A stretch of 64,000 nt of DNA, from NCBI GenBank assembly GCA_002722795.1, contig PBMY01000004.1, positions 1 to 64,000 of the forward strand. The letters are read 5' to 3'. Made by a program: the position numbers and the translations under genes. Positions 25,012 to 29,130 of the stretch are shown here, one piece after another (positions within the stretch are counted from its first letter, which is position 1; the number at the start of each line of letters is the position of its first letter). The notes under the pieces are model-generated. The model searched no databases. It worked only from the letters and a program-made list of their open reading frames with translations, and was not told where the DNA came from. Origin of the DNA: Crocinitomicaceae bacterium (GTDB taxonomy: Bacteria; Bacteroidota; Bacteroidia; Flavobacteriales_D; Sanyastnellaceae).

Positions 25012-25087
25012 GCGAAAATAGCTCAGTTGGTAGAGCACAACCTTGCCAAGGTTGGGGTCGCGAGTTCGAGTCTCGTTTTTCGCTCCA
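25012..25087 (+). tRNA. tRNA-Gly (anticodon GCC), with encoded CCA
   Basis: A full cloverleaf can be drawn: acceptor GCGAAAA/TTTTCGC, D arm GCTC/GAGC, anticodon arm CAACC-TTGCCAA-GGTTG with anticodon GCC, and T arm with GTTCGAG. The CCA is encoded at 25085-25087, unlike tRNA-Leu and tRNA-Phe in this window. The 3' part (25040-25085) is repeated exactly at 26879-26924, which marks it as the attachment site of the islet that follows. Confidence 0.97.
25040..25085 (+). repeat. Proximal 46-bp attachment-type direct repeat (in tRNA-Gly)
   Basis: From the anticodon stem to one base past the acceptor stem, these 46 bases are identical to 26879-26924. The match stops at both ends (flanks CACA versus ACT before; CA versus AA after). 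Such a repeat of a tRNA 3' half is the footprint of tyrosine-recombinase integration. Confidence 0.92.
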
Positions 25088-25090
25088 CTT

Positions 25091-25117
25091 AGAAAGCTTC
25101 CTCATCGGAAGCTTTCT
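25091..25117 (+). terminator. Hairpin after tRNA-Gly
   Basis: AGAAAGCTTCC, loop TCATC, GGAAGCTTTCT forms a perfect 11-bp stem starting four bases after the tRNA CCA. The T-run is weak (TTCTTG). It is part of the islet side of the junction and probably replaces the original tRNA terminator, now at 26934-26954. Confidence 0.7.
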
Positions 25118-25215
25118 TGCTGTCAGGGCAAGGGTTCCAGAAGATCTGGAACATGAAAAGCTGACTGATTAATAATTTATTTGCTTTTCTAAATATACTC
25201 TACCAACTGCCAAAT

Positions 25216-25394
25216 TTGAAGCTTAGTGCCATTTTTGCTGCTAGTCTTTTTCTCACTTTACTTACTCTCTGTCTAACTGCAGACAAACAAAAAAAGTTTT
25301 TTTAGCGATTGAGAAACAATCAGGTGAGGCTGTAGAGCTTATTGTATCACCATCCAACAACAGCTGGGATAGCTTTAAGTGGGTATTTAAATGA
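25216..25394 (+). other. Possible small secreted peptide read across a -1 slippery heptamer
   Basis: From a TTG at 25216 the frame reads LKLSAIFAASLFLTLLTLCL followed by TADKQKKFF and a stop at 25303-25305: a basic, then hydrophobic, signal-peptide-like start. The heptamer A-AAA-AAG lies at 25290-25296 in exactly this frame. A -1 slip gives VFLAIEKQSGEAVEL, continuing to a TGA at 25392-25394 (about 59 residues in all). Either programmed frameshifting, a real frameshift mutation, or chance. There is no ATG, and no homologue is recognised. It is the only other coding-like stretch in the 384 bp between tRNA and the AIPR gene. Confidence 0.3.
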
Positions 25395-25425
25395 GCATTT
25401 TCACTAAAAGTTTCATGTAAATAAA

Positions 25426-25451
25426 AAGCGCCCACTATTAAATGGGCGCTT
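25426..25451 (-). terminator. Rho-independent terminator of the AIPR-family gene
   Basis: AAGCGCCCA, an 8-base loop, TGGGCGCTT: a 9-bp perfect stem. On the minus strand it is followed by TTTAT, 20 bp after the stop of the AIPR gene. It lies fully within the islet. Confidence 0.85.
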
Positions 25452-25471
25452 ACAACGGTATGTATAAAAAA

Positions 25472-26608
25472 TTACAGCTTCATTTTTTCTGCAGTGAGAT
25501 CGAGCATCTCATAAATCAATGGAGACTTTCCAAAGTCTTGAACGTTTTTATACTCATCACCCATATCGTATATTTTTTTCATACGAGCAACAATTTTTCG
25601 TGGATCATAGCCATCTGGCAAGTCTAAACTCCAGCTACCAGAATTTTCGTTTACAAAGACTGAATGAGCACTTATAAATGGGAATAAATAACCATCAGTA
25701 ACTCGAATGCCTGATTCAGATCTAATAATCCCTTTTGTTCTCCAATGCTTTAGACCCCAGTAGTCAGATTCTCTTGCTTCTATATAAAGATCTATTGCAG
25801 GAATAAGCATTGACTTAGCAAAGTCTAAAATGTTATTGAACTTCTCTTCATCAGAAGGGTAAGTAAATTCTTTTCCATAGTATTTTAACCACTTAGCTTT
25901 AGAAGAATAGATAGAAGGCCTGTTTCTTGGAAAGCTTATGTTCTCTTCCCAAAACTTTTCTGGCATTAACGCAAACAATAGTTGGATAGCCTTACCTGTA
26001 TCAAAGTATCCTTTATCTGTTTCGCTAGTAGCTAATTCAACAGGATGATTACTTTCAGACAATACCTTATTTAAGTCTTCAAATGCTCCTCGACGTCCAA
26101 ATACACTAATATCTTTTACAGTGTTTTGAACATTTCTTGCTACAGTGATTTCAGTAATTAAATCATCATCTTCTGTCTCAATAACATAAACATCAACTTC
26201 AACTGGCAACTCGCTATTTAGTTCGCCAGAATCATTGTAACCATGATAGCTTCTTAAAGCACCTTGTGTTTGTGATCCATTTATGATAGACGCATTATTA
26301 TGAAAACTACACTCAACTTTACCTCCACCTAGATCTCTAGTTACCACAGCTCTAGTTACTATTGTAATTCCACCATTAAGATATCTGAAAGAATCAGGCA
26401 TATCTTCTAGTGTGTTTAAAATTGCTTTTTTCACCGAACCTCCTTTTTCTCTTCGCACGTTAAGACCGCTAGAGAAATCTAGTAGTTCGTCTGAATTGAA
26501 TACTCCGTGATAAACTGAAACTTTACCTCTCTCTTTAGATTTCATTGTTGGAGAAGTAACATTACGCCAAATTTTAGCCGTGGCGTTCGGACCTGACATA
26601 TTAGCCAT
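25472..26608 (-). CDS. AIPR-family (abortive-infection phage-resistance type) protein
   Basis: The 378-residue protein matches the AIPR family core by eye: GSVKKAILNTLEDMPDSF (about 57-74), the glycine block YLNGGITIV (77-85), HNNASIINGSQTQGAL (103-118) and ITVARNVQNTVKDISVFGRR (154-173). The C-terminal half (Trp-rich, KWLKYYGKEF, YWGLKHWRTKG) is not recognised. AIPR genes are found with phage-defence and restriction loci (AbiR-like); the biochemical activity of this one is unknown. It is the only full gene in the tRNA-Gly islet, with its own promoter and terminator. It is shorter than many AIPR proteins, which often exceed 500 residues, but no break is seen. No signal peptide; presumably cytoplasmic. 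Confidence 0.75.
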   Translation of the reverse strand: MANMSGPNATAKIWRNVTSPTMKSKERGKVSVYHGVFNSDELLDFSSGLNVRREKGGSVKKAILNTLEDMPDSFRYLNGGITIVTRAVVTRDLGGGKVECSFHNNASIINGSQTQGALRSYHGYNDSGELNSELPVEVDVYVIETEDDDLITEITVARNVQNTVKDISVFGRRGAFEDLNKVLSESNHPVELATSETDKGYFDTGKAIQLLFALMPEKFWEENISFPRNRPSIYSSKAKWLKYYGKEFTYPSDEEKFNNILDFAKSMLIPAIDLYIEARESDYWGLKHWRTKGIIRSESGIRVTDGYLFPFISAHSVFVNENSGSWSLDLPDGYDPRKIVARMKKIYDMGDEYKNVQDFGKSPLIYEMLDLTAEKMKL

Positions 26609-26683
26609 TTTAAAAAATATTTAGTTAATCGCGACCATTATCGTACTGCAAGACCTTCTTGAGTCAAAGTCAGCGACTTGATG

Positions 26684-26715
26684 CAAATATAGTTTAATTT
26701 ATAATTAATTACAAA
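26684..26715 (-). promoter_or_regulatory. Promoter of the AIPR-family gene
   Basis: On the minus strand TTTG (26715-26712), 20 bases, then TATATTTG (26691-26684) fits the Bacteroidota promoter. A leader of roughly 70 bases follows, containing an imperfect inverted repeat (CAAGTCGCTGACTTTGACTC at 26678-26659, minus strand) that could bind a repressor. The gene therefore uses a host-type promoter within the islet. Confidence 0.7.
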
Positions 26716-26797
26716 TGAATAGTGTAAGTTGCGAAGATGGAATTTCTAGACGGTTATCATCTTAACAGTGCTAATTTAGTCTATTTAAGGGCTTTGC

Positions 26798-26816
26798 TGT
26801 CACGTTTTTCGTGACA
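26798..26816. repeat. Inverted repeat TGTCACG-TTTTT-CGTGACA in the islet
   Basis: A perfect 7-bp inverted repeat with a 5-T loop lies 62 bp inside the distal attachment repeat, upstream of the AIPR promoter. It does not follow a gene, so a terminator role is unlikely. It may be a protein-binding site, for example a recombinase or excisionase arm site; that is inference. Confidence 0.4.
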
Positions 26817-26878
26817 CCTTTACATAAATAATCATCACAACGCATTTATTTACAAGGACTTACAGGCTTATGACTACT

Positions 26879-26924
26879 ACCTTGCCAAGGTTGGGGTCGC
26901 GAGTTCGAGTCTCGTTTTTCGCTC
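26879..26924 (+). repeat. Distal 46-bp direct repeat (3' fragment of tRNA-Gly)
   Basis: Identical to 25040-25085. It begins in the anticodon stem, so there is no acceptor 5' strand or D arm and it cannot be a tRNA. The next bases are AACA instead of CCA, which is how tRNA genes in this genome end elsewhere in the window (no encoded CCA). This is the expected remnant of the pre-integration tRNA gene. Confidence 0.92.
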
Positions 26925-26933
26925 AACAAAGAG

Positions 26934-26954
26934 AAGCCTCCCAATTGGGGGCTT
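26934..26954 (+). terminator. Likely ancestral tRNA-Gly terminator
   Basis: AAGCCTCC, loop CAATT, GGGGGCTT and a run of seven T form a strong rho-independent terminator (one G-T pair) 10 bp after the tRNA fragment. On the minus strand it could also stop the retropepsin-like gene, which ends at 26958. Confidence 0.8.
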
Positions 26955-26957
26955 TTT

Positions 26958-28031
26958 TTATTTATACAGCCTTAATACATCTCTTTCTATATAAAGCTCC
27001 CACTTTCTGAATTTCTCAAACAATCCTAACCCGCATAGTAAAGAACCCCCATCAATAACATAAACTATAGTATTATCTACTTCGTAATCACCAATTTTAA
27101 TGTTATCAAGGACAAGCCCTCTACAAGTGACTTGATTATTGTCTGCCAAAACAACATCAATACTTTTTATATAATCATTTCTATTGATAACACCCTCGAG
27201 GAGCAACTCTCTTTCCAAATCACTGTTTATGAATAATTCTGAAGCACCCGTATCTAAAGTGAAATACCTAATTACACCATTTATATTAAGCTTAATCTTA
27301 TAGCCGTAATCTATGTTGTTTGATAATAAATCAATATCCGAAAATGTTCTGTAGCCGGAAATATCTTTTGGATTATATGAATTTACTTTGATTTCAGATT
27401 CTTCAGAAATTTCTTGTTCTAAATGCTCAAAGTCCAAAAACAACTCTTCTATACATGGGACTAAAATCTCATTAAACACTTCACTATTTTCATTTTCAAT
27501 TAGATTTAATTGCCCCATACTGTAACCATTGATTATCAATTTTTGCAAAGCGCAATTACAATATGAATACATCATATCTTTAGTAAAAATCTCATATGAC
27601 TCAGGATCTTGTTCCATTTCAAAAACACAAGATTTAATCGCGAAATTCATCTCCTCTTCTGAATACTCATCATATTCTTTGATTTGATTAAACTTATAAT
27701 CGTCTTCAACTTCTACATATTTATAAATGCAGTCAAGCATTATACCGAGGTTTTTATCTGAGCTAAATAAACTCATAAAGTCATCATTCATCATAGCTAC
27801 TTCAATCTCTGATGAATAAAGCTCTGGGATTAATGCATCACAAACACAAGAGCAATAAGAATACATATCAACTTGTATTCCATTTAAATTAATATCACTA
27901 GCACCTGCAGTACAAGCTTCAACAAATTCAGACTTTTCACCTAATAAAATACCGTCTTTAGTATAGATTTTTTGTCCATAAAGACTAGCTATAAACAAAA
28001 AAGTAATAGCTAATAAAAGTATGTTTTTCAT
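26958..28031 (-). CDS. Secreted retropepsin-like aspartic protease with duplicated Cys-rich domain
   Basis: The 357-residue protein has a signal peptide (1-20), two tandem copies of a Cys module, and a C-terminal retropepsin-like domain. Module 1 has Cys40, the block MYSYCSC (56-62), Cys64 and Cys101; module 2 has Cys135, MYSYCNC (154-160) and Cys193. The catalytic block FTLDTGASELF puts the active Asp at 260, and LCGLGLFEKF near the end is the hydrophobic-Gly motif. One Asp per chain means an active enzyme would be a dimer. It lies next to the tRNA islet but outside its repeats. Substrate unknown. Confidence 0.8.
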   Translation of the reverse strand: MKNILLLAITFLFIASLYGQKIYTKDGILLGEKSEFVEACTAGASDINLNGIQVDMYSYCSCVCDALIPELYSSEIEVAMMNDDFMSLFSSDKNLGIMLDCIYKYVEVEDDYKFNQIKEYDEYSEEEMNFAIKSCVFEMEQDPESYEIFTKDMMYSYCNCALQKLIINGYSMGQLNLIENENSEVFNEILVPCIEELFLDFEHLEQEISEESEIKVNSYNPKDISGYRTFSDIDLLSNNIDYGYKIKLNINGVIRYFTLDTGASELFINSDLERELLLEGVINRNDYIKSIDVVLADNNQVTCRGLVLDNIKIGDYEVDNTIVYVIDGGSLLCGLGLFEKFRKWELYIERDVLRLYK

Positions 28032-28701: not shown

Positions 28702-29130
28702 ATGCACGCAATAATACACACCGATAAAGGCCACCTAAAAGTTGAGTTTTTCGAACACGATGCTCCTAATACAGTTGCCAATTTTGTAAAACTAGCTAAG
28801 GACGGTTTCTATGAGGGTTTAACCTTTCACAGAGTCATTCCAGATTTTGTTGTTCAAGGGGGATGTCCACATGGCACAGGTGTAGGTGGTCCAGGATATA
28901 AAATTGATTGTGAATTAGAGGGTGACAATCAATATCATGACAAGGGAGTGCTTTCAATGGCTCATGCTGGAAGAAACACAGGAGGATCTCAGTTTTTCAT
29001 TGTTCTATCTAGATCTCAAACAGCACACCTTGACGGGAATCACACGTGTTTTGGTAAGGTAGTAGAGGGTGTTAATACAATTGAAGATTTGAGACAAGGA
29101 GATCAATTCAGTGTTGAAATTGTGGAATAA
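28702..29130 (+). CDS. Cyclophilin-type peptidyl-prolyl cis-trans isomerase
   Basis: The 142-residue enzyme speeds cis-trans isomerisation of proline peptide bonds. Seen: [13 protein letters not shown] (catalytic Arg), [19 protein letters not shown] and [15 protein letters not shown]. There is no signal peptide, so it is cytoplasmic, like PpiB. Length is normal for the short bacterial form. Divergent from the barrel gene with 46 bp between start codons. Confidence 0.93.

Follow-up and report, generated by a model that had tools for sequence, protein, structure and literature searches.

An integrase-less, CIME-like islet in tRNA-Gly that probably belongs to a marine Flavobacteriales family of small integrative elements

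The 64,000-nucleotide stretch of DNA analysed here (the window) carries a short islet in the 3' half of its tRNA-Gly gene. We conclude that this islet is very probably an integrase-less member, resembling a cis-mobilizable element (CIME), of a set of small integrative elements that insert in the 3' half of tRNA genes in marine Flavobacteriales. A previous interpretation, made from the letters of the window without database searches (the sequence-only reading), had described a tyrosine-recombinase-type islet in tRNA-Gly. That description is now supported by empty sites, by variable DNA at the same place in relatives, and by same-site integrase-bearing elements whose arms match those of the islet.

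The intact tRNA-Gly(GCC) gene, called by ARAGORN, occupies 25012–25087 on the forward strand and adjoins a DUF4290 gene, an arrangement kept across the genus and family and also found in several further genera. ARAGORN and a repeat finder reproduced the proposed repeat exactly: 46 bp of the tRNA 3' half (25040–25085, forward strand, the attL copy of the core) recur without mismatch at 26879–26924 (forward strand, the attR copy, a lone tRNA-Gly 3' fragment), so that the unit measures 1,839 bp from start to start. Counted from 26876, the repeat extends to 49 bp with one mismatch, and the repeat finder pairs 25037–25093 with 26876–26932 (57 bp at 93%). An exact match of 46 bases within 64 kb excludes chance, and the two other tRNA genes of the window (Leu and Phe) have no comparable partial copy anywhere in its 64 kb. 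The direct repetition of the 3' part of a tRNA gene at the distal boundary is the arrangement expected of a tRNA islet. The GC content of the islet (0.353) is lower than that of the window (0.396) and of the neighbouring core genes. An integrase gene of its own is the feature of such islets that it lacks: gene content, Pfam and translation checks found no integrase, and no trace of one, inside the 1,839-bp unit, as had been claimed. The two hairpins that had been pointed out were also recovered. One, a hairpin with a T-run (26938–26951) in the segment 26938–26958 of the forward strand, follows the distal copy and resembles the terminator by which tRNA-Gly is immediately followed in other genera whose site is empty, as expected of the displaced original terminator; the other, new hairpin follows the intact tRNA and forms part of the left arm.

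Both ends of the islet are shared with other elements. The left arm (25088–25270, forward strand), delimited by homology to the left arms of relatives, contains its own terminator hairpin, two conserved stems and repeats of the TGCCA type. Over ~180 bp it is 93–94% identical to the left arm of G008, and it is 80–85% identical to those of two further relatives (85% for G011, 80% for G006). The right arm (26806–26880, forward strand), which ends in the att core, was recognized by homology to an integrase-bearing element in G012; it is 94.7% identical to the G012 right arm over 75 bp, and the match ends 6 bp short of the start codon of the G012 integrase. The core genes DUF4290 and murA are 79–82.5% identical between the window and G012, and core genes are 76–79% identical between the window and G008. 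The arms (93–95%) are therefore more alike than the core genes (76–83%), which points either to recent exchange between species or to strong constraint. The arm repeats of the islet are imperfect. On the left, TGCCA occurs at 25208 and 25227 and a third copy reads TGCTA where G008 has TGCCA; on the right, TGACA at 26812 is accompanied by TGTCA (26798), just beyond the homologous block; the corresponding repeat of G012 reads TGACA, and the spacing in the islet is longer. A tandem-repeat shuffle test on the window's arms alone was not significant. Left and right arms each occur once in the window's genome, and we found no second islet there.

A model of the left arm (R1) had hits immediately behind tRNA-Gly in 14 of the 114 family genomes, from 3 genera; its one hit elsewhere was a displaced copy in G004. 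Within the arm, window positions 25086–25212 form two stems with compensatory changes, with both partners altered in 4 of 15 pairs; the paired share of cells is 93%, compared with 23–54% in slid controls. A search of Rfam with the left arm returned no family. The R1 structure is also present at tRNA-Gly sites where no element remains (G008 contig 23, G003 and G015), and because left-arm-like sequence persists at such sites, part of the left arm can be a scar.

The same site varies among relatives. At empty sites in other genera (L048, L049, L052, L053 and L054), tRNA-Gly and its terminator are followed immediately by a peptidyl-prolyl isomerase (PPIase) gene, the counterpart of which lies at 28702–29130 in the window. 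A tRNA search of the 114 family genomes found lone tRNA-Gly 3' halves, which represent attR, in the window and in G002, G011, G012 and G117 only, in a count that sets aside copies cut by contig ends. The DNA behind tRNA-Gly differs from relative to relative and includes, in G006, a Prim-Pol/AAA replication protein behind an islet-type left arm. Empty alleles and other contents, both hallmarks of a tRNA islet, thus exist at this site, and a colinear, non-variable interval was not seen.

Several further features of this neighbourhood deserve mention. Between the displaced terminator and the next gene, the window holds an aspartyl-protease-like gene (26958–28031; PF13650, 357 aa, GC 0.30), which may have been inserted here at an earlier time; the gene beyond it directly follows attR in G012. 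Variability extends to the upstream side of tRNA-Gly as well: on G012 contig 47 (L039/L070) a broken second integrase gene stands directly beside DUF4290 and tRNA-Gly is missing, and in G008 three paralogous lipoprotein genes lie between DUF4290 and tRNA-Gly. Two contigs of the single G008 MAG, 23 and 27 (L068 and L040), share tRNA-Gly and then diverge, one continuing with the left arm and an element, the other with a left-arm scar and the PPIase gene, which likely reflects strain variation at the tRNA-Gly site within one population. The PBNL01 contigs (L109, L112 and L148), titled 'Euryarchaeota archaeon isolate SP189', are those of G012, which is in the window's own Flavobacteriales genus, and the title seems mislabelled.

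The sequence-only reading had suggested that an integrase using this tRNA-Gly might be found elsewhere, and such integrases exist within the genus. In G012, G002 and G011 a tyrosine-integrase gene (Pfam Phage_integrase, 4.5e-13) precedes a lone tRNA-Gly 3' half, with its start ~75–80 bp away and reading into the element. The gene is intact in G012 and G002, and in G011 it runs off the end of its contig. In G117 the integrase is reduced to its last 119 residues within a 1.5-kb islet that keeps attR and carries an AHSA1-type cargo gene; in G004 just 21 C-terminal residues are left, and at the site in the window there is no integrase at all. Given this series of intact, 119-residue, 21-residue and absent integrases, deletion after integration is the most parsimonious account of how the islet arose. 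The window's assembly, a 1.74-Mb MAG that is 83% complete, yielded no family integrase at E<=1e-15, and its only two recombinases are XerC/XerD-like; at that completeness an integrase elsewhere in the genome could be missed.

Taken together, a full-length parent element would begin on the left with the tRNA 3' half (attL core) and a tRNA terminator of its own. A left arm bearing repeated putative integrase-binding motifs would come next, then the cargo and a leftward-reading tyrosine-integrase gene, and finally a right arm with similar repeats and the attR core. The islet in the window would be such an element from which the integrase gene is gone, with an AIPR-type gene as sole cargo and with both arms and both cores kept. 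The family integrase presumably bound the arms and placed the islet at tRNA-Gly, and a deletion at about the time of integration or later would have removed its gene. A related integrase entering the cell could still excise the islet or move it in trans, since both arms and both cores are kept, unlike in G004.

The cargo gene (25472–26608, reverse strand) is the sole complete gene between the core repeats and encodes a putative anti-phage protein of 378 aa, of AIPR (PF10592)/Abi type according to Pfam, PADLOC and PHROG. The protein contains an AIPR domain: it matches PF10592 at 8.4e-20 with 72.1 bits (cut-off 25), over profile positions 4–142 of 308. It also matches PHROG 1841, 'Abi alpha-like abortive infection mechanism', at 1.3e-17. 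From these similarities we infer that the gene may protect against phage. We rejected two more specific assignments: the match to PADLOC AbiU (4.7e-12) spans part of that profile and not its full length, and the MzaE score was 26 bits against a curated cut-off of 1050. A single-sequence AlphaFold2 model (pLDDT 34) was set aside. The gene had been credited with its own promoter and terminator. The terminator stands, as a strong intrinsic terminator of 11 pairs and a T-run at 25426–25451 on the reverse strand. A putative promoter of the Bacteroidota type, TTTG-N20-TATATTTG, is present at 26684–26715 on the same strand as a weak pattern match, which is weak evidence because chance alone gives about 3.5 matches to the pattern in each window and 42 of 100 shuffles gave as many matches. 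On the forward strand, an open stretch of 34 codons plus stop (25290–25394), known from its translation, begins just past the end of the left-arm homology and may be the 3' tail of a truncated gene; a search for its relatives found none.

The cargo gene looks foreign and strain-specific. At E<=1e-10 the protein has no relatives in 399 genomes of the order, and 395 genomes of the phylum gave one weak match (34% over 124 aa). In a plasmid collection its nearest AIPR relative, at 31.7%, is a 390-aa ORF on a Tritonibacter mobilis plasmid (NZ_CP110385.1, L153). That ORF lies near a 475-aa ORF resembling a reverse transcriptase, and the two are possibly a two-gene defence pair.

Two origins had been left side by side for the islet, as cargo moved in trans or as a remnant of a larger island. 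The overall islet reading held; between its branches, the truncated integrases at the same site favour a remnant, or CIME, over a purpose-built trans-mobile element. The latter, in which arms and cargo would be moved by the integrase of another element, much as a MITE would be for a tyrosine recombinase, is in our judgement unlikely, while retaining a real share of the probability. It would account for two arms that are complete and recent by comparison with the core genes, for the islet's freedom from any integrase trace, and for the compatible integrases that use the same site within the genus. It fits poorly with an integrase truncated in place twice at this site, in G117 and G004, and with a cargo found in no second genome; the AIPR islet did not turn up a second time anywhere, and movement as a unit was not seen. 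The slightly degraded arm repeats also argue against efficient use by an integrase. Movement of the islet in trans is possible on the evidence of its ends. Slightly more doubtful is the proposal that the islet is a non-autonomous tyrosine-recombinase element, made of arms and one defence gene, that only an integrase from larger elements sharing its tRNA-Gly site can carry among Flavobacteriales hosts, with the structured left arm serving as a dedicated cis signal.

The integrase-less, CIME-like reading gains from a wider family of elements. When the integrase alignment was used to scan 84,980 genomes, 40 loci emerged, nearly all titled Flavobacteriales or other Bacteroidota. Seven of them (L131, L132, L135, L136, L141, L142 and L145) are complete tRNA-bounded elements of 3.0–7.0 kb in tRNA-Met, tRNA-Asn or tRNA-Ala, with repeats of 40–106 bp. 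The family integrase adjoins attR in six of the seven; the exception is L142, where attR lies away from the integrase and the interval read lies beside it, not around it. The arms of the complete elements carry paired direct repeats of the TGnCA type at a spacing of 11–13 bp, and in five of the seven the same tandem 5-mer pairs occur in both arms (four at 0/1000 shuffles, one at 15/1000). These repeats are probably the arm-type sites expected for such an integrase. The cargo is varied: some genes encode long secreted proteins with repeats, one a hydrolase with weak GDSL similarity, one resembles a transposase gene, and others are unknowns. Three of the complete elements (L131, L135 and L141) also carry a small ORF of ~85–100 aa in which an N-terminal basic motif (for example GRQKGTPNK) is combined with a similar helical part; its product may be a recombination directionality factor or a regulator in this element family.

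That the islet is instead what is left of a prophage or phage satellite, with the AIPR gene as a moron, we hold to be improbable. AIPR proteins are known as phage morons (PHROG 1841), and the Prim-Pol/AAA replication protein of G006 stands behind the same left arm. Against this, the cargo of the complete relatives, which was in part profile-tested, includes no recognized gene for a capsid, terminase or portal protein; the family integrase has no match among 2.9 million IMG/VR contigs, and the AIPR protein has none in IMG/VR or the phage collection. An origin without any mobile element, by tandem duplication or rearrangement around tRNA-Gly, would suit a repeat made of the tRNA 3' half only and the decayed copies and rearranged flanks in relatives (G012 contig 47, G004), but it is exceedingly improbable, as the unit starts and ends in arms common to integrase-bearing elements, the repeat is confined to the tRNA 3' half in the way expected of an att core and the cargo looks foreign, and we reject it on the arm homology.

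On the integrase-less, CIME-like reading, one tRNA site displays in stages how an element that bears its integrase becomes a unit that has none but keeps its two ends intact. The analysis also brings to light a family of very small (~3–7 kb when complete), tRNA-targeting elements of marine Flavobacteriales with variable cargo and clearly paired repeats in their arms. Should movement in trans be possible for the islet, one anti-phage gene plus ~250 bp of ends would suffice as a mobile unit, and if the non-autonomous reading is true, the islet would be a minimal single-gene defence cassette.

CIMEs are defined for derivatives of ICEs and IMEs, as integrase-less units that keep their att sites (PMC5704250). 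Judged by its sequence, the islet conforms to this description: the integration gene is lost, there is no transfer gene, attL, attR and both arms are retained (the arms at 93–95% identity to elements at the same site, of which that of G012 bears an integrase), and the site is used by integrase-bearing relatives. It differs in that no conjugation genes were recognized among the cargo of its complete relatives, so that a conjugative ancestry is not supported, in its very small size (1.8 kb, one gene), and in that no accretion with a helper element is seen in the genome. The ssrA-GIs of Dehalococcoides include 15 islands without integrase that were proposed to be CIMEs (PMC3146451). Like the islet, they are bounded by a repeat of the 3' end of an RNA gene and are integrase-less cargo units at a site shared with integrase-bearing islands; they involve a serine recombinase, tmRNA and tandem arrays, whereas the islet is a single unit of tyrosine-recombinase type in tRNA-Gly. 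Tycheposons are cargo-carrying tRNA elements of marine bacteria, 4–200 kb long, with a recombinase (PMC10872708). Compared by description only, they share with the islet a tRNA target, a tyrosine recombinase, a marine host and variable cargo; the islet is smaller and has no integrase. The seven complete elements have the integrase family, arm design and tRNA 3' repeats seen at tRNA-Gly, and differ from the islet in carrying the integrase, in using other tRNAs and in their length. CIME-type units are therefore already known, and this islet is an unusually small one; less familiar are the family of small tRNA elements and the structured left arm.
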